This document shows positions 6,612-58,243 of a DNA stretch of 58,243 bases, piece after piece. Made by a program: the position numbers and the translations under genes. The notes below the pieces were generated by a model. The model saw nothing but the letters and a program-made list of their open reading frames with translations. It was not told the DNA's origin and ran no database searches. Numbering within the stretch: the first letter of the stretch is position 1; each line of letters begins with the position of its first letter. This DNA comes from Eubacterium sp. An11 (GTDB lineage: Bacteria > Bacillota > Clostridia > Lachnospirales > Lachnospiraceae), in the NCBI RefSeq assembly GCF_002161065.1, contig NZ_NFLV01000020.1, forward strand, positions 1 to 58,243. The letters are read 5' to 3'.

Positions 6612-8549
6612 ATGGACAGACAAAGAGGCTTTTTGCCGACCAATAAAAATGAAATGAAGGAGCGTGGCTGGGAACAGGCAGATTTTGTCTATATTTCCGG
6701 AGACGCTTATGTGGATCACCCTTCTTTTGGGATGGCGATCATCACAAGACTGCTGGAAAACGCAGGCTATAAGGTGGCGGTGATCGCCCAGCCGGACTGG
6801 AAGGACGACGCCAGCATCACCGTCTGTGGCGAACCGAGACTGGCTTTTCTCGTGTCGGCGGGCAACATGGATTCCATGGTCAATCATTATACTTCCGCCA
6901 AAAAAAGACGGCATCAGGATGCCTACACGCCGGGCGGCGGATTTTCCAGAAGGCCGGACCGGGCGGTGATCGTTTACAGCAATCTGATCCGGAAAACTTA
7001 TAAAAAGACGCCGATTCTGCTGGGAGGCATCGAGGCCTCTCTGCGCCGGCTGGCTCATTATGATTACTGGAGTGACTCCGTAAAACGTTCTGTGCTGCTG
7101 GATGCCGGCGCTGACCTTTTGATGTACGGCATGGGGGAACATTCGGTGCTGGAGATTGCCGAGGCGCTGCAGGCGGGGATCCCGGTGAAGGAAATCACCT
7201 ATGTGCGGGGAACGGTATTTCGCTGTCACAGTCTGTCGGAGCTTTCCGGTGAGTATGAATTGCTTCCGTCTTATCCGGCAATACTGGAATCAAAGGAAGA
7301 ATATGCCAGAAGCTACTACCGGCAGTACCAGAATACGGACGCTCTGACGGCAAAACGTCTGGTGGAGCCATATAAGGAGAAGGAATATGTGGTACAAAAT
7401 CCTCCGGCGCTGCCTCTGACCACGGAGGAGATGGACGAGGTCTATGCCCTCCCTTATCAGAGAACCTGGCATCCTTCTTACGATGCACAGGGCGGCGTAC
7501 CTGCCATTCAGGAAGTGAAGTTTTCGCTGGTCAGCAACCGGGGATGTTTTGGCGGCTGCAGTTTTTGTGCCCTTACCTTTCATCAGGGAAGGCGTGTGCA
7601 GGTGCGCAGCCATGCATCCATTCTCCGGGAAGCCAGGGAGATGACAAAGGACCCGGATTTTAAGGGATACATTCATGACGTGGGAGGGCCGACGGCGGAT
7701 TTCCGTCATCCAGCCTGCAAAAAACAGCTGGAAAAGGGCGTCTGCAGTCACCGGCAGTGTCTGTTTCCGGAACCTTGTCCGAATCTGGACAGCAGCCACC
7801 GGGATTACATTTCTTTATTAAAGAAGCTGCGCCAGGTGGACGGAGTGAAAAAGGTATTTATCCGTTCCGGCATCCGCTTTGATTATGTGCTGGCGGAAAA
7901 CAATCAGGATTTTCTCCGGGAACTCTGCGAGTATCATGTGAGCGGACAGCTGAAAGTGGCGCCGGAGCATATCAGTGATCCGGTGCTCGCCATGATGGGA
8001 AAACCGGCCAACGATGTATATGAGCGCTTTGTCCGGCAGTATCATGCCATGAACCGGCGTCTTAATAAGAAACAGTTCCTGGTGCCGTATCTCATGTCCT
8101 CCCATCCCGGTTCCGGACTCAAAGAGGCCGTGGAGCTGGCGGAATATGTCAGAGATCTGGGGTATATGCCGGAACAGGTGCAGGATTATTACCCGACGCC
8201 GGGAACGATTTCCACCTGTATGTACTATACGGGCCTTGATCCACGGACCATGAAGCCGGTCTATGTGCCAAGAAGCGCCAGGGAGAAGAAAATGCAGCGG
8301 GCGCTCATACAGTACCGGAATCCGGATAATTACGCGATTGTTAAAGAGGCATTGCTGGCGGCAGGACGGGAAGATTTGATCGGTTACGGAGAGAAATGTC
8401 TGATCCCGCCTCGTCCGGGACACGGGAAGAAAACATCCGGAAAGGAAGGAAACGCAGAAAGGCGATGGTCCGGAAAGAGGGGGACAAAAACGCAGACAAA
8501 GAAGAAAAAGACCATCCGTCATGTGCATAAGAAGAAAAAACACGGATAA
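6612..8549 (+). CDS. YgiQ-family radical SAM protein
   Basis: Large radical-SAM enzyme of the YgiQ (UPF0313) family, whose biochemical role is not established. The [4Fe-4S] motif CFGGCSFC gives cluster cysteines C312, C316 and C319. Before it lies a B12-binding-like N-terminal domain (opening GDAYVDHPSFG) and after it the family signature PGSGLKEAVELAEY. The last 60 residues are a very basic tail (KKTSGK, KTQTKKKKTIRHVHKKKKHG), which suggests RNA or nucleotide contact; that is inference. At 645 residues it is normal for the family. It starts eight bases after the RsuA-like gene. Confidence 0.93.
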   Translation: MDRQRGFLPTNKNEMKERGWEQADFVYISGDAYVDHPSFGMAIITRLLENAGYKVAVIAQPDWKDDASITVCGEPRLAFLVSAGNMDSMVNHYTSAKKRRHQDAYTPGGGFSRRPDRAVIVYSNLIRKTYKKTPILLGGIEASLRRLAHYDYWSDSVKRSVLLDAGADLLMYGMGEHSVLEIAEALQAGIPVKEITYVRGTVFRCHSLSELSGEYELLPSYPAILESKEEYARSYYRQYQNTDALTAKRLVEPYKEKEYVVQNPPALPLTTEEMDEVYALPYQRTWHPSYDAQGGVPAIQEVKFSLVSNRGCFGGCSFCALTFHQGRRVQVRSHASILREAREMTKDPDFKGYIHDVGGPTADFRHPACKKQLEKGVCSHRQCLFPEPCPNLDSSHRDYISLLKKLRQVDGVKKVFIRSGIRFDYVLAENNQDFLRELCEYHVSGQLKVAPEHISDPVLAMMGKPANDVYERFVRQYHAMNRRLNKKQFLVPYLMSSHPGSGLKEAVELAEYVRDLGYMPEQVQDYYPTPGTISTCMYYTGLDPRTMKPVYVPRSAREKKMQRALIQYRNPDNYAIVKEALLAAGREDLIGYGEKCLIPPRPGHGKKTSGKEGNAERRWSGKRGTKTQTKKKKTIRHVHKKKKHG

Positions 8550-46944: not shown

Positions 46945-47041
46945 ATCAAAAGAAAACACGCAGATCACTCCGGAATAAAACAATACAAAATACCTGTACG
47001 AACACTATGAGATCATCCTGTCAGATGTATGGCGGCGAATG

Positions 47042-47064
47042 CCTGCATCGGGCAGGATTTTTTT
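47042..47064 (+). terminator. Terminator upstream of the polyamine regulator
   Basis: CCTGC-ATCGG-GCAGG (47042-47056) then a T7 run (47058-47064). It directly abuts the next promoter. Confidence 0.7.
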
Positions 47065-47065
47065 C

Positions 47066-47094
47066 TTGACAAATATACCAGTGTCTGCCATAAT
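47066..47094 (+). promoter_or_regulatory. Sigma-A promoter for the regulator-potABCD operon
   Basis: Perfect TTGACA (47066-47071), 17 bases, CATAAT (47089-47094). Confidence 0.8.
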
Positions 47095-47110
47095 ACAGCT
47101 TGTTTAATTA

Positions 47111-47131
47111 TACTAAACTTTCTGTTTAGTA
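47111..47131 (+). promoter_or_regulatory. Probable operator of the XRE-cupin regulator
   Basis: TACTAAAC (47111-47118) and GTTTAGTA (47124-47131) form a perfect inverted repeat with a 5-base centre, placed just after the transcription start. The position suits autorepression by the helix-turn-helix protein encoded next. Confidence 0.65.
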
Positions 47132-47286
47132 ATTACTGACCTTCCCGCGTGACGAAAAAGTCCGCAGAGGGAAAAGAGAAAAAAGAGAGAAAAAGGAGGT
47201 GCCGCCGGGCATTTTCTGCCAGAAACAGCAGAAGGGCAGACGCGGTTTTTCATGTCAAAGGAAGACAGCGCTGTGGGCCGGAAAGT

Positions 47287-47823
47287 ATGGATATTGGACA
47301 TAGAATCAGAGATTTGAGAAAAAAGCAGGGGTTGACACAGGAAGAGCTGGCGGACCGGGCCGAGCTGAGCAAGGGGTTTATCTCCCAGCTGGAACGGGAT
47401 ATGACGTCTCCTTCCATATCAACTCTGGAGGATATCCTGCAATGCCTGGGAACTTCCATCGGAGAATTTTTTCGCAGCGAGAAGGAACAGGAACAGATTG
47501 TCTTTACAGAAGAAGATTATTTTGTAAAAGAAGATAAAGAGTACGGTAACCGAATCCAGTGGATCATTCCCAATGCTCAGAAAAATACCATGGAGCCGAT
47601 TTATCTGCATCTGGATGCGAAAGGTTCCACCTATCCGGATAATCCCCACGAGGGGGAAGAATTCGGATATGTACTGCGGGGAGAGATCGTGATTCATCTG
47701 GGAAAGGAGATACACACAGCCGGAAAGGGAGATTCTTTTTACTATACGGCCGACCGGACTCATTACATTTCTTCCGAAAAAGGTGCGGATATTTTATGGG
47801 TGACATCCCCTCCAAGTTTTTAG
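47287..47823 (+). CDS. XRE-family regulator with C-terminal cupin (PuuR-like)
   Basis: Transcription factor with an N-terminal helix-turn-helix (residues 2-58: MDIGHRIRDLRKKQGLTQEELA, LSKGFISQLERD, SPSISTLEDIL) and a C-terminal cupin (about 100-175: HEGEEFGYVLRGEIVIHLG, GDSFYYTADRTHYI) likely to bind a small ligand, probably a polyamine given the potABCD genes behind it. 178 residues from ATG 47287. That start has only a weak ribosome binding site, whereas a strong one (AAAGGAGGTG, 47191-47200) lies 87 bases upstream with no in-frame ATG after it; a GTG at 47149 keeps the frame open but adds a basic stretch unlike the family. Confidence 0.88.
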   Translation: MDIGHRIRDLRKKQGLTQEELADRAELSKGFISQLERDMTSPSISTLEDILQCLGTSIGEFFRSEKEQEQIVFTEEDYFVKEDKEYGNRIQWIIPNAQKNTMEPIYLHLDAKGSTYPDNPHEGEEFGYVLRGEIVIHLGKEIHTAGKGDSFYYTADRTHYISSEKGADILWVTSPPSF

Positions 47824-47869
47824 AAAATGTAAATTCAGAGAGAAAGGTTAGAATACAGGGAAAACATAA

Positions 47870-48943
47870 ATGAAAAATAACTTAGTGGAATTAAATCACA
47901 TTTCCAAGTCCTTTGGAGAAACCATGGTACTGGATGACCTGTGTCTGGAGGTCAAAGAAAATGAATTTATCACCCTCCTGGGACCATCCGGATGCGGAAA
48001 GACGACCACGCTGCGGATTATCGGCGGTTTTGAGAAACCGGACCGGGGCAGAGTGATTTTTGACGGAAAAGATATCACCGATGTTCCGGCCAACAAGAGA
48101 AATCTGAACACGGTATTCCAGAAATATGCGCTTTTTCAGCATATGACCATTGAGGAGAACATCGCATTTGGTCTAAAGATCAAGAAAAAGTCGGACAGCT
48201 ATATCCGGGATAAGATCAAATATGCCTTAAAACTGGTGAATCTGGACGGCTATGAGAAACGTAAGCCTTCTTCTTTGAGCGGCGGCCAGCAGCAGCGGAT
48301 TGCCATCGCCAGAGCCATTGTCAATGAGCCGAAAGTGCTGCTCCTTGACGAGCCCCTGGGGGCCCTCGATTTAAAGCTCCGCCAGGACATGCAGTACGAG
48401 CTGATGCGCCTGAAGGAGGAGCTTGGCATCACATTTATTTATATTACTCATGACCAGGAAGAGGCGCTGACCATGTCTGATAAAGTGGTGGTCATGAACC
48501 AGGGGTATATTCAGCAGATGGGTACGCCGGAAGATATCTATAACGAGCCGGAGAACGCTTTTGTGGCAGACTTTATCGGCGACAGCAATATCATCGACGG
48601 TATTATGCTGGAAGACAGGCTGGTGGAGATTTTGGGACATAAGTTTGAATGCGTGGATGTGGGATTTGGCACCAACCGTCCGGTGGACGTGGTGGTTCGT
48701 CCGGAGGATGTGATTCTCGGGGAAGAAGGAAAAGGCATTCTGGACGGTGTGGTCACCTCCCTCATTTTTAAGGGCGTTCATTATGAGATGGACGTCATGG
48801 CCGGCGGTTATGAATGGCTGGTGCACAGCACAGTCTGTCATCCGGTGGGCACGAAGGTGAGCATTTCAGTCATTCCATTTAATATTCAGATCATGAATAA
48901 ACCGGAATCTGATGACGAGAAAGCGGTGAATGTAAATGAATAG
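47870..48943 (+). CDS. potA: Spermidine/putrescine ABC importer ATPase
   Basis: Energises uptake of polyamines. Walker [11 protein letters not shown]-loop [12 protein letters not shown], signature [15 protein letters not shown], Walker [14 protein letters not shown]-loop [12 protein letters not shown]; residues about 240-340 form the TOBE-like regulatory domain (VVRPEDVIL). 357 residues. It follows the regulator by 46 bases, and its end overlaps potB by eight bases. Confidence 0.95.
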
Positions 48944-49751
48944 AAAGATATTGGCAAGCCCATACATCGTGTGGGCACTGGGATTTATTATTTTACCGCT
49001 GTTTATGATTCTTTACTACGGTCTGACCGACGGCAGCGGCGCGTTTACACTGGAAAATGTATTGGCCATCGCTGACCCGGTACATTATAAGGCTTTTGGT
49101 AATTCTCTGGTGATGGCGCTTGGCAGCACGGTGATCTGTCTTGTGATCGCCTATCCTCTGGCCTATATTTTGAGTCAGCATGAGGGCAAGGTATCCAACA
49201 CCATCATCATGCTGTTTATCCTGCCCATGTGGATCAACTTTCTTTTGAGAGTACTGGCCATGCAGATGCTTCTTTCCAACACCGGGATCATCAACGCCCT
49301 TCTGGGCTTTTTTGGCCTGCCGGCGCAGCGGATCATGTATACAAAAGGGGCGATTCTCATCGGTATGGTGTACGATTATCTGCCGTTTATGATTCTGCCG
49401 ATTTATAATGTGATGAGTAAGATCGACAAGGATGTCATTGAGGCGGCCCAGGATCTGGGAGCGACAGTTTTTGTGACTTTCAGAAAAATTATCGTCCCGC
49501 TTTCTCTGCCGGGCGTTATCAGCGGAGTGACCATGGTCTTTATTCCAAGTATGTCGGAGTTCGTTGTGGCGGATATTCTCGGCGGATCCAAGATCCTTCT
49601 TCTCGGAAACGTCATTGAACAGGAGTTTAATCTGTCCAACAACTGGAATCTCGGTTCCGGTCTCTCGATCGTTCTGATGGTATTTATTCTGATCAGCATG
49701 GCTGTTATGAACAGAAGCAAAGCGGAGGAAGGAGATACAATGTTATGGTAA
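48936..49751 (+). CDS. potB: Spermidine/putrescine ABC importer permease PotB
   Basis: Integral membrane subunit with six helices and the EAA loop [29 protein letters not shown] that docks to PotA. 271 residues. The start overlaps the potA stop and its own stop overlaps potC, so subunits are made together. Confidence 0.94.
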
Positions 49752-50536
49752 AAGCAAAAAAATATGCAGGCAGGATTTATGTGGGCCTGATCGGATTCTT
49801 ACTGTATTCGCCTCTGCTGATTCTCATTGTCTGTTCTTTTAATGACTCGAAAATCAGGACTGTATGGGGCGGTTTTACCCTCCACTGGTACACAGATCTG
49901 TTTCAGAATGAGGAGGTCCTGCTGGCGGTGCGTACTTCTTTGATTCTTACTACCTCAGCGGCTCTTATTGCCACTGTCATTGGTACGCTGGCATGCATCG
50001 CCATGTCTGCGATGGGTAAGAAAATGAAAGGCGTGATGCAGTCGGTGGCGAACATTCCTCTGCTGAACTCAGAGATGGTTACCGGTATCGCCATCATGCT
50101 TTTATTTGTGCATTTCATGACCCTGGGATTCAGTTCCATGCTCATTGCCCATGTGACCATCGGACTTCCCTATGTCATACTCAATGTGATGCCGAAACTG
50201 CAGCAGGTGGACAAGAATCTCTACGAGGCGGCCCTGGATCTGGGAGCGTCCCACGTGTACGCCTTTGTGAAGGTGATCCTCCCGGAGATCATGTCGGGAA
50301 TCCTCGCCGGATTTTTCTTCGCCTTCACCATATCCATGGATGATTTCGTGGTGACATACTTTACCAAAGGCGCCGGCATCAACACCATATCCACCATGAT
50401 CTATCAGCAGCTCCGACGGGGGATCAACCCGCAGATGTACGCCTTGTCCACACTGCTGCTGTTTATCATTTTGATCCTTCTTGCCATCATCAACCGTCTG
50501 TCGGCCACGAAGGAAAAGAAGGAGGTGCAGTATTGA
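49745..50536 (+). CDS. potC: Spermidine/putrescine ABC importer permease PotC
   Basis: Second membrane subunit, with six helices and the EAA loop YEAALDLGASHVYAFVKVILPEIMSGI. 263 residues. The ATG at 49745 follows AAGGAG and overlaps the potB stop by seven bases. FTISMDDFVVTYF near the end is typical of PotC. Confidence 0.94.
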   Translation: MVKAKKYAGRIYVGLIGFLLYSPLLILIVCSFNDSKIRTVWGGFTLHWYTDLFQNEEVLLAVRTSLILTTSAALIATVIGTLACIAMSAMGKKMKGVMQSVANIPLLNSEMVTGIAIMLLFVHFMTLGFSSMLIAHVTIGLPYVILNVMPKLQQVDKNLYEAALDLGASHVYAFVKVILPEIMSGILAGFFFAFTISMDDFVVTYFTKGAGINTISTMIYQQLRRGINPQMYALSTLLLFIILILLAIINRLSATKEKKEVQY

Positions 50537-51681
50537 AACATTTGAAAAATATTTTCCATAATGCCGGTACAAGAGAAATCGGCAGGACTCCGGGAAAAAC
50601 CGCTGCAGGAAAGAAAGGCAGGTTCCGGAAGAGATGCATTTTGTCGCTGGCAGTGCTGGGTACGGCATTGGCTGCAGCCGGCTGTGCCGGAGGCCATGCA
50701 GCGGAAGATGAGAATACGCTGGTCATTTTCAATTATGGCGATTACATTGACAGAGACACCATCCAGATGTTTGAGGATGAGACAGGCATTGAAGTAAAGT
50801 ATGAAGAATATATCACGCCGGAGGACATGTACACCAAGTATCAGTCCGGCGGCATAAACTATGATCTGATCTGTACCTCCGATTATATGATCGAGAGAAT
50901 GATCATGGACGGAGAGGCGCAGCCCATTGATACTTCCGGTATGGAGTATTTTGAAAATGTGGATCAGAAATACATGGATTTCTGCAAGGCGTTTGATCCG
51001 GAAAATCAGTATGCCATTCCGTATTTCTTCGGCACGGTGGGAATCCTTTACAATGAAAAAATGGTCGACGAGGATGTGGACAGCTGGTCTGTTCTCTGGA
51101 ATGAGAAGTATAAAGATCAGATCATCATGGAAAACAGCGTCCGGGATGCTTTCATTGCGCCTTTGAAGCTGAAAGGATATTCCATCAATACCACGGATAA
51201 AAATGCTCTTCTGGAGGCGCAGTCTATGCTTATGGAGCAGAAACATCTGCTGGCAGCTTATCTGGTGGACGAGACCAAAGACGCCATGATCTCCGGAGAT
51301 GCAGCCCTCAGCGTCATTTATTCCGGTGATGCCACGGTGGCCATCGAGGAGAATGAAGATCTCACATATGTGGTTCCGAAAGAAGGGACGAATATCTGGT
51401 TTGACTGCTGGATGATCCCGAAGACCGCAAAACATAAGGAGGCGGCGGAAAAATTCATTGATTTTATGAACCGCCCGGATATTGCCATGCTGAATTTTGA
51501 TTATATCTGGTATGGAACTCCGAATAAAGCTGTTTACGAGGAACTGGATGAGGAAACCAGGGAAGATCCGACCATTTTCCCGGATGAGGATATCATGAAT
51601 AAATGCGAAGTCTATCAGTATCTGGGAGAGGAAATGGACAGTTATTACAGCCGTCTGTGGAAAGAATTGAAGGCTTATTAA
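50533..51681 (+). CDS. potD: Polyamine-binding lipoprotein PotD
   Basis: Surface substrate-binding protein of the importer. Signal peptide with hydrophobic core LSLAVLGTALAAA and lipobox AAGC, giving lipid-anchored C51. The mature protein begins with the PotD-like block LVIFNYGDYIDRDTIQMFEDETGIEVKYEEY and contains YDLICTSDYMIERM and IPYFFGTVGILYN. The TTG start overlaps the potC stop (TTGA) and follows GGAGGTG. The region before the hydrophobic core, about 33 residues with many basic ones, is longer than usual for a lipoprotein signal. 382 residues. Confidence 0.93.
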   Translation: MKHLKNIFHNAGTREIGRTPGKTAAGKKGRFRKRCILSLAVLGTALAAAGCAGGHAAEDENTLVIFNYGDYIDRDTIQMFEDETGIEVKYEEYITPEDMYTKYQSGGINYDLICTSDYMIERMIMDGEAQPIDTSGMEYFENVDQKYMDFCKAFDPENQYAIPYFFGTVGILYNEKMVDEDVDSWSVLWNEKYKDQIIMENSVRDAFIAPLKLKGYSINTTDKNALLEAQSMLMEQKHLLAAYLVDETKDAMISGDAALSVIYSGDATVAIEENEDLTYVVPKEGTNIWFDCWMIPKTAKHKEAAEKFIDFMNRPDIAMLNFDYIWYGTPNKAVYEELDEETREDPTIFPDEDIMNKCEVYQYLGEEMDSYYSRLWKELKAY

Positions 51682-51714
51682 AAAAATGGCAGACCAACGA
51701 AAGCAGGTGAAAAA

Positions 51715-52212
51715 ATGGGACACAAATTAACCCGGCATGACATTGACAAAATGAAAGAAGAAATCGAACACCGCAAGGTTGTCGTGCGCAAAGAGCTTCT
51801 GGAACATGTGAAAGAAGCCAGGGCCCATGGCGACCTGAGCGAGAATTTTGAATATCATGCAGCCAAAAAAGAAAAGAACCGTAACGAAAGCCGTATCCGC
51901 TATCTGGAGCGTATGATCCGGACCGCAGAGGTGGTGGATGACCACACCGCTTCCGATCAGGTGGGCGTCAACACAACGGTCACTCTTTACTTTGAAGAAG
52001 ACGACGAAGAAGATATTTTCTCCTTTGTCACGACGGTGCTGGTAGACTCCATGAAGAATCGTGTGAGCATCGAATCCCCATTGGGAAAAGCCCTCATGGG
52101 CCATCATATCGGTGACCGCGTTTACATCGAAGTCAACCCGCAGTACGGCTACTACGTAGAGATTAAAGACATCCGGCCTTTCGAGGATGATGTACCGTTA
52201 AATGCATACTGA
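51715..52212 (+). CDS. GreA/GreB-family transcription elongation factor
   Basis: Binds RNA polymerase in the secondary channel and rescues backtracked complexes by promoting transcript cleavage. N-terminal coiled coil: HGDLSENFEYHAAKKEKNRNESRIRYLERMI, whose acidic tip (DLSENFEY) holds the catalytic Asp/Glu. The C-terminal FKBP-like domain ends IGDRVYIEVNPQYGYYVEIKDIRP. 165 residues. It follows potD by 33 bases after GCAGGTGA and may be transcribed with it in part. The GreA-type acidic tip is intact, so it is probably active. Confidence 0.92.
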   Translation: MGHKLTRHDIDKMKEEIEHRKVVVRKELLEHVKEARAHGDLSENFEYHAAKKEKNRNESRIRYLERMIRTAEVVDDHTASDQVGVNTTVTLYFEEDDEEDIFSFVTTVLVDSMKNRVSIESPLGKALMGHHIGDRVYIEVNPQYGYYVEIKDIRPFEDDVPLNAY

Positions 52213-52319
52213 TCCTTTGGGATCCTTGTACTATATTTTATAAGCAAAACAACAGGGGATCCCTGTATTGCATTTTGTGACCAAAACAACAGAATACTCT
52301 GATAAAAAATATTCTTATG

Positions 52320-52367
52320 CGCGCAGGGCATGGTAAAAATATACCAGAATTGTCCTGCGCGTTTTTT
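52320..52367 (+). terminator. Terminator after greA-like gene
   Basis: CGCGCAGG (52320-52327) pairs with CCTGCGCG (52354-52361), with GGTA/TACC inside, followed by T6. Upstream, 52213-52319 holds further small palindromes, including ACAGGG-gat-CCCTGT. Confidence 0.8.
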
Positions 52368-52377
52368 GATCTTATAG

Positions 52378-52404
52378 AGAGTTCCGTCTGTCGGAACTCT
52401 TTTT
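52378..52404 (+). terminator. Second terminator
   Basis: AGAGTTCCG-tctgt-CGGAACTCT, nine perfect pairs (52378-52400), then T4. Together with the first it isolates the following gene cluster. Confidence 0.8.
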
Positions 52405-52435
52405 ATATTTATTTCTAAAAAAGAAATGGATTTAA

Positions 52436-52464
52436 TTGAAAGAACCATGGGGAAAAGATATAAT
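52436..52464 (+). promoter_or_regulatory. Sigma-A promoter of the pseudokinase cluster
   Basis: TTGAAA (52436-52441), 17-base spacer, TATAAT (52459-52464), 48 bases before the first start codon. Confidence 0.75.
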
Positions 52465-52511
52465 AATGCAGACGGCTTTTGCCGGATATCGACATAAAAT
52501 GGGGGAGAGTT

Positions 52512-53957
52512 ATGGAATTATTGTGGGAAAACCGAAGTCTGCTCAGCTCCGGCGTTACGACACAGGCTATGATGTTTGTGATCATCAACATGATTTACGG
52601 AAAGAGGGAGCGTCCCTGGGTGTTTGCCCTCACCAATGCGCTGCATTTTATCCTGACCAATGTCGTTCTGGATCTTTTTCTGAAAGAAAAATACGGTGAC
52701 GAATTCTGGTTTATGATTTTTCTGCCGCTGGCGGGCAACCTTCTGGCCTATGTGGTGGTCGTCATTCAGGCCATTAACTGGAGAGAAAACTTTGTAAAAC
52801 TTCTCCTGGCCTTCATGCTGGCGGACGCCCTCTGCGGTATGACCGGATATATGATGTATACCATTTTTGGAACCCCGGAATTGATTTTCGTATTTGGGAT
52901 GCTTGTTCTCGCGGTTTTCTGTCTGCTGTTTTCCGGACTGATGAAGAAATACAGAAATATCCGTCTCTATCACCCGTGGCTGGTGGGAGGTTTTATCCTA
53001 TACACCACCGTTCAGGGTGCATTTTCCCGTGTCCTGTATATCCTGCAGGACGCAAATGTGATATCCGCCGCCATGTTTTTCATAGGCATCTGCAATATTA
53101 TTTTTGCCATCGCCTTTGTGCTGGTGGAATATATCATTTACACCCTGATTCTTCAGAGAAAATATCACATGCTCCTGCGCAACAAAGACCAGATGGAAAG
53201 CTATTACCGTCAGGTGGCCAGACACATCCGGGAAATTGACGAGACCCGCATCCTGCTGGAACAGGGCACAAAACTCCTGTCGGGCGCTGACGCTGCATCC
53301 GGAGCACCCAAACCATTCGGAGTGTCCAAAGCATCCGGAGCCGGAGTACCCGGAAGGCAAATGGAACGAGAGGAGCAGGAAGCTGTCGCGGCGGCCCCGG
53401 ATGGCAGAGCTGCCATGAATCCCAGACAGCTGCAGGCCTACCTGGCAAAACTAAAGAGCCAGTACGAAGCGCTGGGAGAGGTCTTCTTCTGCAACGATTT
53501 CGCGGTGGATAGTGTCCTTCGCGATTATGTGGTCCGCTGCCGAAAGGAAGGAATCAAAACAGATATCCTGTTTCACGAATACCAAAGGGGAAAAGTCGCC
53601 GCGGAAGATGCGGCAGCTATCCTCTCCCGGATGCTGGACTACGGGATCAAAGCGGCGAAACTGCCTGAAGACTGGAAAATCCAGACGGCGGAGCGTCATA
53701 CAGTTTTGCAGGATAAAATGGCCCAAACGGTCATCAGCCTTCATGGGGCTTCTGTCAAAAATCAGCTAATCTTCTCCATGACAGTGACCCGGGAAGGAGA
53801 CAGAGATGCGAATAAAAATCTGCTGAAAATACGGATTCGAAAACGTTCCTTTAACCCGTGGATGAGAAAATATAACGGGATCGTGCATGTGCAGCGGGAA
53901 GAGACAAGGCTGCAGATGGTGGTGGGACTGGAGAATGGTGGACGGCCTGATAAATAA
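52512..53957 (+). CDS. AgrC-like membrane sensor with degenerate histidine-kinase domain (paralogue 1)
   Basis: Not a named family to my knowledge. Residues about 10-215 form six or seven hydrophobic helices in the AgrC-type pattern. The cytoplasmic part begins ESYYRQVARHIRE, which lines up with the KKYRHDMKKHI box of the true kinase at 56806, but the phospho-acceptor His is Gln. A Pro/Ala/Gly/Ser linker (about 258-305) is followed by FFCNDFAVDSVLRDYV, matching LYCDNIFIDTICTL of the kinase. The N-box position reads SRMLDYGIKAA instead of LLDNAIEAS, and no Gly-rich ATP lid is present before NPWMRKYNGIVHVQ. So it should sense but not phosphorylate (inference). ATG 52512 follows GGGGGAG; 481 residues. 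Confidence 0.75.
   Translation: MELLWENRSLLSSGVTTQAMMFVIINMIYGKRERPWVFALTNALHFILTNVVLDLFLKEKYGDEFWFMIFLPLAGNLLAYVVVVIQAINWRENFVKLLLAFMLADALCGMTGYMMYTIFGTPELIFVFGMLVLAVFCLLFSGLMKKYRNIRLYHPWLVGGFILYTTVQGAFSRVLYILQDANVISAAMFFIGICNIIFAIAFVLVEYIIYTLILQRKYHMLLRNKDQMESYYRQVARHIREIDETRILLEQGTKLLSGADAASGAPKPFGVSKASGAGVPGRQMEREEQEAVAAAPDGRAAMNPRQLQAYLAKLKSQYEALGEVFFCNDFAVDSVLRDYVVRCRKEGIKTDILFHEYQRGKVAAEDAAAILSRMLDYGIKAAKLPEDWKIQTAERHTVLQDKMAQTVISLHGASVKNQLIFSMTVTREGDRDANKNLLKIRIRKRSFNPWMRKYNGIVHVQREETRLQMVVGLENGGRPDK
53169..53938 (+). repeat. C-terminal module repeat, copy 1
   Basis: 770 bases of paralogue 1 recur with few differences in paralogue 2 (54668-55386). In the first 60 bases only one base differs. 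Copy 2 lacks 51 bases, net, around the codons for KLPEDWKIQTAERH. Sequence before and after these borders is not similar at DNA level. Confidence 0.9.
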
Positions 53958-54010
53958 AGAATGGAGCTATAGGAATAAATAGACTGGAAGATAAAAGAGG
54001 TTATAAAGAC

Positions 54011-55432
54011 ATGCTGGAAAAATTTATAGATTCTCAAATTGTTTTAAGCATGGGAGTTTCGTCAAAAGTTATTACTTATGTTTTGGTTAATATTATGATT
54101 GGGAAAAAGAAAGGACGGAGAATTTTCCTGCTGTGTTGTATAATACATTATCTTACATATAACGTGGGTTTATTAGTTATTTTCGATTTCTTTTTTGGGA
54201 GCGAATTGTGGTTTCGTCTGTTGATGCCAACGGTAAGTCTGGTGTTGGGCATTGGAGTTCCTGTGATTATGTCGATTGTCTGGAAAATAAATTTTTCCAA
54301 AATGATGTTGGGTTTTTTGATACCGGATTCATTGTCATTGCTTGTATATATTCCAGCACAGTTAACAGGAAATCCAGTAATGGTGATATTATTTAGTATA
54401 ACAGCATTGATATTCATATGTATTTTCTTTTCTCGGTTTTTTGAAAAATATCAGACCTTGCAAATCAGACACACATGGCTGATTTCCGGGCTGACATTAA
54501 TAACACTGGCAAACGGATGGATTACGAATATTTTATATGCGTTGGAAGAAGAAGGAATCGTTCCGGCATCAATCTATTCTATGGGATTATTTCAAGTATT
54601 TCTTATTTTATTTTTTATTTTTGCCGAAAGTATCCTTTATGTATTAGTCGCAAAACAAAAACAAAAAATGCTCCTGCGCAACAAAGACCAGATGGAAAGC
54701 TACTACCGTCAGGTGGCCAGACACATCCGGGAAATCGGCGAGACCCGCATCCTGCTGGAACAGGGCACGAAACTCCTGTCGGGCGCTGAAGCCGCATCCG
54801 GAGCACCTAAACCATTCGGAGTGTCCAAAGAATCCGGAGCCGAAGTACCTGGAAGGCAAATGAAACGAGAGGAGCAGGAAGCTGTCGCGGCAGCCCCGGA
54901 TGACAGAGCAGCCATGAATCCCAGACAGCTGCAGGCCTACCTGGCAAAACTAAAAAGCCAGTATGAAGCGCTGGGCGAGGTCTTTTTCTGCAACGATTTC
55001 GCGGTGGACAGTGTCCTTCGCGATTACGTGGTCCGCTGCCGAAAGGAAGGAATCAAAACAGATATCCTGTTTCACGAATACCAAAGGGGAAAAGTCGCTG
55101 CGGAAGATGCGGCGGCTATCCTCTCCCGGATGCTGGACTATGGGATCAAAGCGGTTGCGTTTGGGAAAGCCCAAACGGTCATCAGTCTTCAAGGGGCTTC
55201 TGTCAAAAACCAGCTGATCTTCTCCATGACAGTGACCCGGGAAGGAGACAGAGATGCGGACAAAAATCTGTTGAAAATACGGATTCGGAAACATTCTTTT
55301 AACCCGTGGATGAGAAAATATAACGGGATCGTGCATGTGCAGCGGGAGGAGACAAGGCTGCAGATGGTGGTGGGACTGGAGAATGGAAAAAAAACAATAG
55401 CAGAATTTTCTGGAATTATGGATGAAATGTGA
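54011..55432 (+). CDS. AgrC-like membrane sensor with degenerate histidine-kinase domain (paralogue 2, mosaic)
   Basis: Same architecture as paralogue 1. The membrane half (about 1-215, with VSSKVITYVLVNIMIGKKKG at its start) is AT-rich and distinct in sequence, closer in style to paralogue 3. From codon ATG 54668 on, the cytoplasmic half is almost identical to paralogue 1 in DNA and is much GC-richer. It has the same YRQ in place of YRH, the same MLDYGIKA in place of the N-box, and no ATP lid. 17 codons present in paralogue 1 are missing before KAQTVISL. Starts after AAGAGG, 53 bases behind paralogue 1; 473 residues. It looks like a hybrid produced by gene conversion. Confidence 0.75.
   Translation: MLEKFIDSQIVLSMGVSSKVITYVLVNIMIGKKKGRRIFLLCCIIHYLTYNVGLLVIFDFFFGSELWFRLLMPTVSLVLGIGVPVIMSIVWKINFSKMMLGFLIPDSLSLLVYIPAQLTGNPVMVILFSITALIFICIFFSRFFEKYQTLQIRHTWLISGLTLITLANGWITNILYALEEEGIVPASIYSMGLFQVFLILFFIFAESILYVLVAKQKQKMLLRNKDQMESYYRQVARHIREIGETRILLEQGTKLLSGAEAASGAPKPFGVSKESGAEVPGRQMKREEQEAVAAAPDDRAAMNPRQLQAYLAKLKSQYEALGEVFFCNDFAVDSVLRDYVVRCRKEGIKTDILFHEYQRGKVAAEDAAAILSRMLDYGIKAVAFGKAQTVISLQGASVKNQLIFSMTVTREGDRDADKNLLKIRIRKHSFNPWMRKYNGIVHVQREETRLQMVVGLENGKKTIAEFSGIMDEM
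54668..55386 (+). repeat. C-terminal module repeat, copy 2
   Basis: 719-base counterpart of 53169-53938. The sharp GC step at 54660-54668 (AAACAAAAACAAAAA then CTCCTGCGC) marks the junction. Confidence 0.9.
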
Positions 55433-55442
55433 TGGAAAAAAT

Positions 55443-55479
55443 TTGAAGATGTGTCATAATAATGTATTATATGTCATAA
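55443..55479 (+). promoter_or_regulatory. Promoter with paired TGTCATAA repeats before paralogue 3
   Basis: TTGAAG (55443-55448), 16 bases, TATTAT (55465-55470). TGTCATAA occurs at 55452-55459 and again at 55472-55479, exactly 20 bases apart, bracketing the -10. This is a plausible site for a dimeric regulator. Confidence 0.45.
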
Positions 55480-55494
55480 AGTAGGAGAAATGAT

Positions 55495-56784
55495 ATGAAA
55501 ATAATTTTAGACGGGCAAATCATGTTCAGCATTGGAATCATTTCAAAGATGATGATGTATTTTCTGATGGATGTCATGATCGGTAAAAAAGAAAAGAGGG
55601 TGGGTATTGTCTTACTGTGTGTAGCGCATTTTTTGATATATAATGTGGGAATCCTGATTGTTATGGACAGACTTTTTGGGAAAGAACAGTGGTTTCAGTT
55701 ATTGATGCCAACCTGCAGTCTGTTTCTTGCCACCGGCAGCGTGGCGGCCTTCAGTTTGCTGACCAAAAACAGTTTTTTTAAAATGCTGTTGGAATGTGTG
55801 GTGGCGGATGCCATCTGCGGCGTTATCATTTATATAGACCGGGAATTATTTTCTGATCCGCTGTCTTTATTTATATTTGCCGCTGTGGTATTTGCGGTTT
55901 TCTATGTGGTGAGCAGACCGCTGTTGAAAAAATGCCGGACCCTTCAGATGGGACATTCCTGGATTGTAGGCGGATTTCTATTGATAGCTCTTATAAATAG
56001 CTGGTTTTCCAATATTTTATATGTCCTTGAAAAAGAGAAAATGTTGGCAAATTCTATGCAGTTGGTCAGTTTTCTTCAGATTGTGATTGTTTTGTTTGCG
56101 GTGTTGATGGAATGTATTATATATTATCTCGTTTTAAAAAGAAAATATAAAATGTTGCTTCGGCGTAATGAGCAAATGGAAAGTTATTACCGTCAGGCGG
56201 CAAAGCATATTCGGGATATGGAGACAGGATGGGATTTTTTAGGGGGGGGTAGCGCGGACAGAGTTTTTTTCATTGAGCACAATGATATATCAGAAAAAAG
56301 AGGATTTACGTCAGGGGATGTATCTGAACAGACGAAAAGATATCTGCAGAAATTAAAAAGACAATACAAAGCTGCGAATGAAATTTTTTTCTGTAATGAT
56401 TTTGCTGTGGACAGCGTTTTGCGGGAATTTGTTTTGGAATGTCACAGCAGAAACATTCATACGGATATATCATTTTATGAGTATGACAGAAAAAAAGCGG
56501 ATCCGGAAGACGTGGCGGCTATTCTTTCCCGGATGCTTGATTTTGTTTTGAAGATTCAGAAAGATTTGAATACGGAGGACGGCGGCAGAGCCAGAGTGCA
56601 GGGAGCAGTAGTTAAAAATCAGCTTATATTTTCAGTGACATTTACTATAATGGGAAACACAGAATTGCCTGTCATTAAAATTCGGAAAAAGGATTTTAAT
56701 CCATGGATAAAAAAATATGATGGATTGATTCAGCTTGTGCAAAAAGAGAATTCTCTGCAGATTATTGTCGGGCTTAATGAGTGA
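55495..56784 (+). CDS. AgrC-like membrane sensor with degenerate histidine-kinase domain (paralogue 3)
   Basis: 429-residue relative of paralogues 1 and 2, not copied at DNA level. Six or seven helices are followed by ESYYRQAAKHIRDM (Gln in place of the acceptor His), a short linker, IFFCNDFAVDSVLREFV, and SRMLDFVLKIQ where the N-box would be; the end NPWIKKYDGLIQLVQKENSLQIIVGL aligns with the last strands of a GHKL domain but lacks the G-box. The linker codons contain T6-A-G8 (56235-56249), coding FLGGGS. ATG 55495 follows GTAGGAG. It has its own candidate promoter. The next gene follows at 22 bases. Confidence 0.75.
   Translation: MKIILDGQIMFSIGIISKMMMYFLMDVMIGKKEKRVGIVLLCVAHFLIYNVGILIVMDRLFGKEQWFQLLMPTCSLFLATGSVAAFSLLTKNSFFKMLLECVVADAICGVIIYIDRELFSDPLSLFIFAAVVFAVFYVVSRPLLKKCRTLQMGHSWIVGGFLLIALINSWFSNILYVLEKEKMLANSMQLVSFLQIVIVLFAVLMECIIYYLVLKRKYKMLLRRNEQMESYYRQAAKHIRDMETGWDFLGGGSADRVFFIEHNDISEKRGFTSGDVSEQTKRYLQKLKRQYKAANEIFFCNDFAVDSVLREFVLECHSRNIHTDISFYEYDRKKADPEDVAAILSRMLDFVLKIQKDLNTEDGGRARVQGAVVKNQLIFSVTFTIMGNTELPVIKIRKKDFNPWIKKYDGLIQLVQKENSLQIIVGLNE
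56242..56249 (+). repeat. G8 homopolymer inside paralogue 3
   Basis: Eight G in a row, preceded by T6-A. Gain of one G would put TAG directly after the tract; loss of one G leads to a TAA about 35 codons later. Either truncates the protein after the membrane half and the helix that replaces the H-box. Confidence 0.85.
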
Positions 56785-56805
56785 TGGAAGAAATAGGAGG
56801 ATGGC

Positions 56806-57534
56806 ATGAAATTTTTACTGGAAATTCTTCTGGTGCTTGTTATGCTTGAATTGGTAAGAAGATGGATAATAAAAGCATTGGAACTGGAGGAAAAAAACAG
56901 GAGGCTTCAGGATAAACTCAGCGCAATGGAAAAGTTGTATGAGGAAATGCAGGGGGAAATCGAGATAACAAAGAAGTATCGTCATGATATGAAAAAACAT
57001 ATTCATCTTCTGGAAGGACTCCTGTCAAAATACAATGACACGGAAATGAAATCTGATGTCATCTGGCAGGGGACTTCCTGTGGAATTCCACAGAAAAATT
57101 TATACTGTGATAACATTTTTATAGACACCATATGCACATTAAAAAAGAAACAGTGTACAGAAAAAGGGATTGCTCTGTCTGTTGATATACAAATGAAAGA
57201 CTTTGTGCCAATGAAAGAAATTGATATCAGCGGGCTTTTGCAGAATCTTCTCGATAACGCCATTGAAGCCAGTGAACAGGTGGCGGATTCGGCAAAGAGG
57301 GAGATTTCTCTGTTTGTTCATGAAAAACAGCTGGGATGGTATCTTACGGTAAAGAATTCCTGTGTGGCTCCGGGAGAGATTGATTTTCGTACAAAAAAAC
57401 GAGATCAGGAGAATCACGGATATGGTATCGGGATTATCCGTGAGATTGTGACCAGATATGATGGAACGATAGATTACATAAAAGATGAGTCAGAAAATCG
57501 GGTGATTGTAAAAGTATTTTTCCCAAGAAAGTAG
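56806..57534 (+). CDS. GHKL (AgrC-type) histidine kinase with minimal membrane anchor
   Basis: Apparently active sensor-type kinase. Residues 1-23 are one hydrophobic helix, followed by a coiled coil (25-55). The acceptor is H60 in KYRHDMKKH, the N-box is NLLDNAIEAS (147-156) and the G-box HGYGIGI (204-210). It is closest in type to AgrC/ComD-like HPK10 kinases, but these have six or seven helices while this one has only one and no visible sensor region. The three upstream paralogues have the membrane sensors and lack these catalytic motifs, so partnership is likely (inference). No response regulator gene lies beside it. 242 residues; start after AGGAGG. Confidence 0.82.
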   Translation: MKFLLEILLVLVMLELVRRWIIKALELEEKNRRLQDKLSAMEKLYEEMQGEIEITKKYRHDMKKHIHLLEGLLSKYNDTEMKSDVIWQGTSCGIPQKNLYCDNIFIDTICTLKKKQCTEKGIALSVDIQMKDFVPMKEIDISGLLQNLLDNAIEASEQVADSAKREISLFVHEKQLGWYLTVKNSCVAPGEIDFRTKKRDQENHGYGIGIIREIVTRYDGTIDYIKDESENRVIVKVFFPRK

Positions 57535-57637
57535 ATATAGTCCGATGGAAAAGTAGGGGGATTATCAGTATGACAGGTCGTGAAAAGGCGGCTTTTTGGG
57601 AAAAATAAAAAAGTCGTAAAAAAAGTGAAAAAAAGTG

Positions 57638-57666
57638 TTGACATTTGGAAAAACTGATGGTAATAT
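57638..57666 (+). promoter_or_regulatory. Promoter of the tRNA-Ser pair
   Basis: TTGACA (57638-57643), 17 bases, TAATAT (57661-57666); an overlapping TATAAT (57664-57669) would need a 20-base spacer. Confidence 0.65.
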
Positions 57667-57707
57667 AATCAAGTCGCGGTTAGCTGTGACACAAAAGAAT
57701 AGCTTCT

Positions 57708-57793
57708 GGAGAGGTGTCCGAGTGGTTTAAGGAGCTGGTCTTGAAAACCAGTGATACTGAAAGGTACCGTGGGTTCGAATCCCACCTTCTCCG
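57708..57793 (+). tRNA. tRNA-Ser (anticodon UGA)
   Basis: Acceptor GGAGAGG pairs with CTTCTCC; anticodon stem CTGGT/ACCAG with loop CTTGAAA gives anticodon TGA, reading UCA. A long variable arm (class II) and T stem GTGGG-TTCGAAT-CCCAC are present. The discriminator G is followed by TAC, so CCA is not encoded. Confidence 0.96.
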
Positions 57794-57829
57794 TACTTTT
57801 ACGTGAGATGCAGAGAGAGCTATTGATTT

Positions 57830-57918
57830 GGAGAAGTACCCAAGAGGCCGAAGGGGCTCGCCTGGAAAGTGAGTAGGTCGTTAATAGCGGCGCAAGGGTT
57901 CAAATCCCTTCTTCTCCG
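57830..57918 (+). tRNA. tRNA-Ser (anticodon GGA)
   Basis: Acceptor GGAGAAG/CTTCTCC, anticodon stem CTCGC/GTGAG with loop CTGGAAA, anticodon GGA reading UCC and UCU. Long variable arm (TAGGTCGTTAATAGCGGCGC), T stem AAGGG-TTCAAAT-CCCTT, discriminator G, CCA not encoded. It lies 36 bases behind the first tRNA and is probably cut from the same transcript. Confidence 0.96.
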
Positions 57919-57920
57919 TT

Positions 57921-57956
57921 GATTTGCAATTATCAATTTGATGATTGCAAATTTTT
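57921..57956 (+). terminator. Terminator of the tRNA operon
   Basis: ATTTGCAAT (57922-57930) pairs with ATTGCAAAT (57944-57952), followed by T5. Confidence 0.85.
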
Positions 57957-57957
57957 C

Positions 57958-57985
57958 TTGACATTTGTCGAGAATATGATATAAT
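57958..57985 (+). promoter_or_regulatory. rRNA operon promoter P1
   Basis: TTGACA (57958-57963), 16 bases, TATAAT (57980-57985): both hexamers perfect. It starts immediately after the tRNA terminator. Confidence 0.85.
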
Positions 57986-58078
57986 GTAAAAGTTGCTGAC
58001 GCAAAGCTTTAACAGTTTCGATTGAAAGAAAGAATTTTTTGCTTGAAAGTCTTGATTGAACAAAAAAGAAAAAAGTTC

Positions 58079-58107
58079 TTGACAAACAAAAGAAGCTATG
58101 ATATAAT
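58079..58107 (+). promoter_or_regulatory. rRNA operon promoter P2
   Basis: TTGACA (58079-58084), 17 bases, TATAAT (58102-58107), with the same GATATAAT context as P1 and 122 bases downstream of it. Tandem perfect promoters are typical of rrn operons. Confidence 0.85.
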
Positions 58108-58243
58108 ACAAAAGCTTTTGCGGTTCAAAAGCAAAAGGCTGAACGGAGTTCGGCAAAGTAAGTTGATAACTGAATAACAAAACAACCTCGAACGTTCAAT
58201 TCAATTGAGATTTCGGGTCCGGAAGCGAGTGATGTCGGCGAGA
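58108..58243 (+). other. Probable 16S rRNA leader (rrn operon start)
   Basis: No reading frame. TTTTGC/GCAAAA forms a hairpin near 58114-58136, followed by AACTGAATAACAAAACAACC-like spacer sequence typical of clostridial rRNA leaders. Mature 16S rRNA is not reached. Assignment rests on the tandem promoters and leader style. Confidence 0.65.

Follow-up and report, generated by a model that had tools for sequence, protein, structure and literature searches.

Tandem pseudokinase sensors beside a single-helix GHKL kinase in Eubacterium sp. An11: a putative modular AgrC-like receptor

How might membrane sensors that have lost every catalytic residue of a histidine kinase pass on a signal, and what would inform a complete kinase that has no multi-helix sensor of its own? 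Both questions are raised by four genes, S1, S2, S3 and a kinase gene, at the end of a 58,243-nt stretch (positions 1–58,243 of contig NZ_NFLV01000020.1) of Eubacterium sp. An11 (genome G000), referred to here as the window. All four genes lie on the + strand, and the gaps between them are 53, 62 and 21 nt. An earlier sequence-only reading of the window had described three tandem proteins with an AgrC-like membrane half and a dead GHKL half, and had suggested that several dead sensors share one kinase. The description is borne out by the open reading frames (ORFs), their homology and the predicted fold. As to the suggestion, we consider it probable that the locus encodes a modular heteromeric AgrC-like receptor, in which S1–S3 would each sense their own ligand, pair with the single kinase, which has one transmembrane segment (1TM), and give output via a LytTR response regulator encoded on another contig, C41. 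The parts of the locus are as follows.

52512–53957, + strand: S1; the ATG at 52512 is the likelier start, the ORF list giving an upstream TTG at 52479
52512–53168, + strand: variable membrane half of S1, with seven hydrophobic stretches (ORF, identity and hydropathy comparison)
53169–53957, + strand: constant cytoplasmic half of S1, with a DHp-like helix without the histidine and a GHKL-like domain without N-box or G-box (alignment)
54011–55432, + strand: S2 (ORF list)
54011–54667, + strand: variable membrane half of S2, G+C content (GC) 33% (ORF, identity comparison)
54668–55432, + strand: constant cytoplasmic half of S2, GC 52% (alignment, identity comparison)
55495–56784, + strand: S3, a seven-transmembrane (7TM) pseudokinase sensor (ORF, alignment, hydropathy, AlphaFold model, GHKL fold)
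56806–57534, + strand: 1TM GHKL histidine kinase with YRHD, NLLDN and HGYGIG motifs (PF14501 match, alignment, hydropathy)

To score the catalytic columns, 19 pseudosensors were aligned together with 17 kinases, the window proteins included; the G318 pseudosensor and the G026 kinase are cut short, hence the smaller N-box and G-box denominators. The phosphoacceptor histidine was found in the H-box column of 0/19 pseudosensors, S1–S3 among them, compared to 17/17 kinases. The N-box asparagine (0/18 vs 17/17) and the G-box (0/18 vs 16/16) were distributed in the same way, in agreement with the earlier claims that all three sensors lack the N-box asparagine and the glycine-rich lid. The claim that they carry YRQ in place of YRH(D) was right as to the loss of the histidine but not as to its position, as YRQ aligns with 'LYEEM' about 12 residues upstream of the H-box column, which itself reads TRILLEQG in S1 and S2.

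Hydropathy gave seven hydrophobic stretches each in S1 and S3, with several run together in S2, and four to eight, some run together, in each of the 19 sensors; the labels 7TM and 1TM for relatives are based on homology and hydropathy. An AlphaFold model of S3 (single chain, 7-row alignment, pLDDT 68.5) has a membrane half of seven long helices, followed by a C-terminal domain with a predicted GHKL fold, as the sequence-only reading had expected. AgrC heads the fold-match list of this domain, and DivL and RetS (7n0e) are also listed; the rows of the comparison (VIA-align) cover mainly residues 298–429 and barely include the membrane half and the DHp-like region. No Pfam or NCBIfam family matched S1–S3 above cut-off, and hence no known family with an alternative active site was found among them. 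HATPase_c_5 was weakly matched by 3/17 pseudosensors (best E 0.0049), a search of PDB sequences with S3 alone gave 0 matches and one with the sensor profile gave 7 weak matches (best E 0.012), and a plasmid search with S1 gave no match. S1–S3 thus appear to be pseudo-histidine kinases in the structural sense, with a predicted histidine kinase fold from which the catalytic residues have been lost; they resemble AgrC/HPK10 sensor kinases in their multi-TM sensor and predicted GHKL fold, and not in histidine, N-box or G-box.

The fourth gene had been described as having all catalytic motifs and one membrane helix, and both features were found. The protein matches HATPase_c_5 (PF14501, E 7.4e-20) and carries an RHD H-box, an NLLDN N-box and a G-box, i.e. 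every catalytic motif of the AgrC/HPK10 type. By hydropathy its single hydrophobic segment spans residues 1–27, and it has no multi-TM sensor of its own. A single N-terminal hydrophobic stretch is present in 17/17 kinases, that of G309 having a second, internal one. The best solved relative of the kinase profile by sequence is AgrC (6e52, E 1.3e-4); the AlphaFold model of the kinase (single chain, 4-row alignment) has a pLDDT of 70.4. The histidine and the ATPase both reside on this protein, not on separate proteins as in a split kinase. The cytoplasmic half of the pseudosensors is homologous to the kinase module across the TM and DHp-like region. These comparisons suggest that the kinase corresponds to the last TM helix, DHp and ATPase part of an AgrC-like receptor, and the sensors to a whole receptor with dead chemistry.

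Is this association of dead sensor and 1TM kinase peculiar to one genome? Sensor, kinase and LytTR-type regulator genes are adjacent in eight relatives, five in the host genus (G309, G303, G304, G315, G316), probably the butyrate-producing gut lineage Anaerobutyricum, and three outside it (G028, G369, G036). Modules are cut by contig ends in G307, G312 and G318, and in G026 the kinase ORF is interrupted. Among 24 congeneric genomes the sensor profile identified pseudosensors in 12, and a 1TM kinase was found in the same 12 (in 11 at E≤1e-23 in frames of <300 aa, and in G307 as a fragment of 116 aa where a contig ends). Module-type regulators (E≤1e-45) were found in these 12 genomes plus G305 and G311. 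Of 397 genomes of the family, 5 contained kinases at E≤1e-50 and 6, those five and G026, contained pseudosensors at E≤1e-100; the six span five genera. Each genome with a strong sensor match has a 1TM kinase gene, although it is interrupted in G026 and represented by only a piece in G307. The trio is found elsewhere in the genus, and four further genera of the family have it as well; the array of three sensors was found, among the genomes searched, in this genome only. What recurs is a single dead sensor together with one 1TM kinase and one LytTR regulator.

Only the best 4–6 candidates per genome were scored in the large searches, and extra copies may have been missed. Across the class, no pseudosensor beyond this genome was found in 391 genomes at E≤1e-20; L225 and L226 (~1e-21) were rejected as ordinary kinases with RHD, N-box (NLLNNALEA and NLLENAING) and GxG. 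Sensor-profile matches in G305 and G320 were likewise rejected, being long ordinary kinases with catalytic motifs. A search of named genomes with the S3 sequence alone gave no match, and an alignment query gave four loci, all in genomes already counted. The module-type LytTR regulators of G305 (L126 2221–2985) and G311 (L127 4152–4694, at a contig end) are in genomes where neither pseudosensor nor module-type 1TM kinase was found. G303, which has a complete module elsewhere, contains a second module-type regulator (L131 4784–5503) with no sensor or kinase profile match in the 10 kb examined.

In a tree computed after the cut rows PS_G318 and K_G026 had been dropped, the sensors formed one clade (support 0.999) and the kinases another (0.986). 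Well supported subclades were alike in the two: {G028,G369}, {G303,G304,G315,G316} with further kinases, {G000,G321,G299} and {G306,G309}. G204 has a protein of 422 aa whose gene neighbours encode a 1TM kinase and a regulator, and which branched outside both clades; G204 was included in the motif counts and the tree but left out of all co-occurrence counts. Among the relatives examined, G208 has the full-length protein that comes closest while keeping kinase motifs, namely RHD, NLFINAIEA (N-box Asp replaced) and a G-box. This protein is a plausible picture of the ancestor.

If several sensors serve one kinase, their cytoplasmic halves would be expected to be alike under unrelated membrane halves, and this is what was seen for S1 and S2. 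The DNA of the two genes is 46% identical in the membrane half (302/654) and 93% identical in the cytoplasmic half (684/735 aligned), and their common 3' part of ~780 bp is 94–95% identical in two blocks. In 20-codon steps identity jumps from 45% to 98% at the block starting MLLRNK, just past the last TM helix. The S1 membrane half has 28–31% amino acid identity to those of S2 and S3, and the S3 cytoplasmic half has 49–50% to those of S1 and S2. GC rises from membrane to cytoplasmic half in S2 (33 to 52%), the G299 sensor (32 to 52%) and the G321 sensor (37 to 53%). Compared to the G321 sensor, S1 has 81% amino acid identity in the membrane half and 65% in the cytoplasmic half, while the S2 membrane half has no close counterpart in G321 or G299 (28–34%). 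G321 contains the S1-like sensor plus a broken S3-like copy (L048 10903 to about 11850), and G299 contains an S1 relic, its start joined to its tail (L049 about 7980–8130), upstream of a different, intact sensor. Given these mixtures of intact, broken and relic genes, the sensor repertoire seems to turn over while one kinase stays.

The broken and relic copies also fit a different explanation, namely that the sensors are decaying former kinases, or else stand-alone transport or binding proteins, lying beside an orphan kinase by chance. We find this very improbable, as five genera have kept full-length sensors that lack every catalytic residue, and wherever a genome gave a strong sensor match a 1TM kinase gene was present too, although interrupted in G026 and cut in G307. 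For S1 and its G321 counterpart the ratio of nonsynonymous to synonymous substitution rates (dN/dS, NG86) is also far lower than 1, at ~0.08 for the membrane half and 0.19 for the cytoplasmic half, with 0.14 for the kinase; these values are only approximate since dS exceeds 1 and is saturated. On this measure both sensor halves are under purifying selection.

Where does the signal leave the receptor? The absence of an adjacent response regulator stood as observed, but a likely cognate LytTR regulator was found on contig C41. A search of the genome with the G309 module regulator gave a C41 match of 54% identity (E 5e-88), the next best match being 29%; the C41 protein is a LytTR response regulator, and no HATPase_c_5 match is present on that contig. 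Like the regulators of G321 and G299, the C41 gene adjoins LDH- and DUF975-like genes. The same genes follow the regulator after one transporter-like gene in G309 and G306, and in G309 the sensor and kinase are there too. In the three array-locus species the sensors and kinase, at the pot-greA locus, thus lie apart from the regulator. The neighbour names pot, greA, LDH, DUF975 and groEL were read off translations, not family searches. The C41 regulator is likely to be the cognate partner of the window kinase. Neither an AgrB-like protease nor an AgrD precursor was noticed among the ORFs of at least 80 aa at 47000–58243, and no search was aimed at AgrB, AgrD or small peptides.

Other ways of dividing a kinase between proteins were observed in these genomes. 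Contig C22 of the same genome (G000 L072 2506–8140) encodes a second LytTR system. Three of its proteins are membrane proteins of ~300 aa that stop shortly past an HD-containing DHp helix and so have no ATPase domain; two others are ATPase proteins that lack the phosphoacceptor histidine. Over this system and its relatives in G270, G105, G243 and G183, HD was present in 9/9 sensor ORFs (one a fragment), while the ATPase proteins had histidine at the H-box column in 0/6 cases and the N-box in 6/6. The C22 system therefore appears to be a split kinase, with histidine and ATPase on separate proteins. The converse is encoded in G414 (L232 5866–7994), where a 1TM protein that has RHD but whose N-box is dead is directly followed by a multi-TM protein that lacks the histidine and has NLFDNAARA and a G-box. 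The same two kinds of protein are encoded on separate contigs of G026 (L055 4586–5353 and L233 254–1600), and we would guess that they pair. These arrangements suggest that heteromeric kinases may be common in these genomes.

In the modular receptor that we propose, each 7TM pseudokinase would sense its own extracellular ligand via its membrane half and associate with the 1TM kinase through the last TM helix, the DHp-like helix and the dead GHKL-like domain. The ligand state of any sensor would set autophosphorylation of the kinase, from which phosphate would pass to the LytTR regulator encoded on C41. The sensing half would vary, whereas gene conversion would help to keep the half that contacts the kinase uniform, and new sensor specificities could be added to one output. 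We infer heteromerization, signalling through the kinase, the choice of regulator and the ligands. Since the kinase chain carries both histidine and ATPase, a 1:1 sensor–kinase complex could act only in cis, and activation within the complex would need either cis phosphorylation or a 2:2 complex.

This constraint is the basis of another explanation, which we regard as possible and hold only tentatively. The sensors could be dominant-negative, binding the kinase in dead heterodimers until ligand frees it to form signalling homodimers; the pairing is common to this explanation and to the modular receptor, and our confidence in the two overlaps. With histidine and ATPase on only one chain, a 1:1 dimer would allow no trans-phosphorylation, and AgrC is said to phosphorylate in trans. 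RetS, an inhibitor of GacS, is also among the fold matches. However, the complementary splits in relatives would need productive heterodimers, and cis phosphorylation is reported for MtrB (PMC5956149), by which a heterodimer could be active.

Several observations weigh against the modular receptor. In the window's own genome the proposed C41 regulator is unlinked to the array, and elsewhere the G306 sensor is on another contig than kinase and regulator, as is the G121 kinase relative to sensor and regulator. The S3 cytoplasmic half is not homogenized with those of S1 and S2, the GC step, strong in S2, G321 and G299, is slight in S1 (46 to 54%) and not seen in S3 (38 to 39%), and conversion between S1 and S2 may be due to proximity alone. 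The co-occurrence counts relatives, not independent events, with E-value limits that were set after gaps in the lists had been viewed; deep nodes of the tree are weak (support down to 0.03), and the AlphaFold models are of single chains from small alignments (7 and 4 rows). The idea of a shared kinase itself gains from the retained predicted GHKL fold, the kinase that accompanies the sensors and the near-identical S1 and S2 cytoplasmic halves; the array of three was seen, among the genomes searched, in this one alone.

Mirror-tree comparison of 13 modules also failed to set the cytoplasmic half apart (r with the kinase of 0.935, compared to 0.905 for the membrane half), and was rejected as a test since it did not discriminate between the halves. 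Over the same number of modules the cytoplasmic half tracked the regulator slightly better than the kinase (Pearson 0.952 vs 0.935), which counts against the modular receptor and would fit a pseudokinase half that acts on the response regulator, by binding or dephosphorylating it, not on the kinase. The gene order in G036 and G026, where the regulator is encoded between the other two, and in G121 and G307, where it is next to the sensor, points the same way; DivL, for comparison, reads a regulator's state. We nevertheless think this unlikely, as the sensor half-module and the kinase share homology in the TM and DHp-like region, which in this family makes dimers.

A further feature upstream of the cluster was identified by motif scan.

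52436–52464, + strand: promoter-like site TTGAAA-17-TATAAT upstream of the four-gene cluster (11/12 matches, motif scan)

Promoter-like sites in the scan overall were not commoner than in shuffles (12 found vs a mean of 13.2). By eye, hexamers and spacing resembling this site occur upstream of the array in G321 and G299. Also by eye, the 11-mer CAAAACAACAG was seen twice, with starts 37 bp apart, at 52245–52292 between the greA-like gene and the array; in G321 it was not seen in the 159 nt that precede the array. Directly 3' of the kinase gene, at 57707–57919, are two tRNA-Ser genes (anticodons tga and gga).

To our knowledge, pseudo-histidine kinases are known mostly as isolated cases; pseudoenzymes in two-component signalling have reportedly been reviewed. 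AgrC/HPK10 systems share with the window system a multi-TM sensor, a DHp helix, a GHKL domain (HATPase_c_5) and a LytTR regulator, but here histidine, N-box and G-box are missing from the multi-TM sensor, and a separate 1TM protein is the kinase. DivL and RetS have a GHKL fold with catalysis lost or diverted and act on partner kinases; they are single proteins directed at a separate full-length kinase, whereas the window encodes a 7TM receptor family, in tandem with converted halves, and a sensor-stripped kinase. Plant ethylene receptors include degenerate histidine kinase receptors in mixed complexes with canonical ones, but are eukaryotic, and the canonical partners retain their own sensors. 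In CheA3/CheA4 of Rhodobacter sphaeroides, one receptor-kinase function is spread across two proteins (PMC3591291). There, however, histidine and ATPase are on different proteins, unlike the window system in which both are on the kinase and neither is on the sensor; on that description the C22 system is the closer to CheA3/CheA4. Pseudo- and split histidine kinases are thus known kinds (PMC12632262, PMC3591291). A literature search, from which subscription papers were largely beyond reach, gave no account of an AgrC-like dead-sensor/1TM-kinase module or array.

The recurring pair is a clean comparative system, in which the same module occurs twice, once catalytic and once at most conformational, and it lets the inter-subunit part of the signal be told apart from the chemistry. 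The S1/S2 cassette boundary is a natural sensor-swap point that is useful for chimeric receptors, and the complementary splits, if confirmed, would be natural tests of cis vs trans phosphorylation in the AgrC family. In the family, AgrC-like receptors may repeatedly have become obligate hetero-complexes with sensing and catalysis on different proteins: a dead 7TM sensor with a complete 1TM kinase, a histidine-bearing sensor with a histidine-less ATPase in the C22 system, and the reverse in G414 and possibly G026. In the genus, an array whose membrane halves are interchangeable and whose constant half is gene-converted would then serve a single kinase and a single regulator, as a bacterial counterpart to receptors of variable/constant design; we regard the case for and against this wider proposal as evenly balanced. 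The recurrence of the pairing in relatives suggests a receptor with its sensing and enzyme parts on separate proteins, in which sensors could be swapped.

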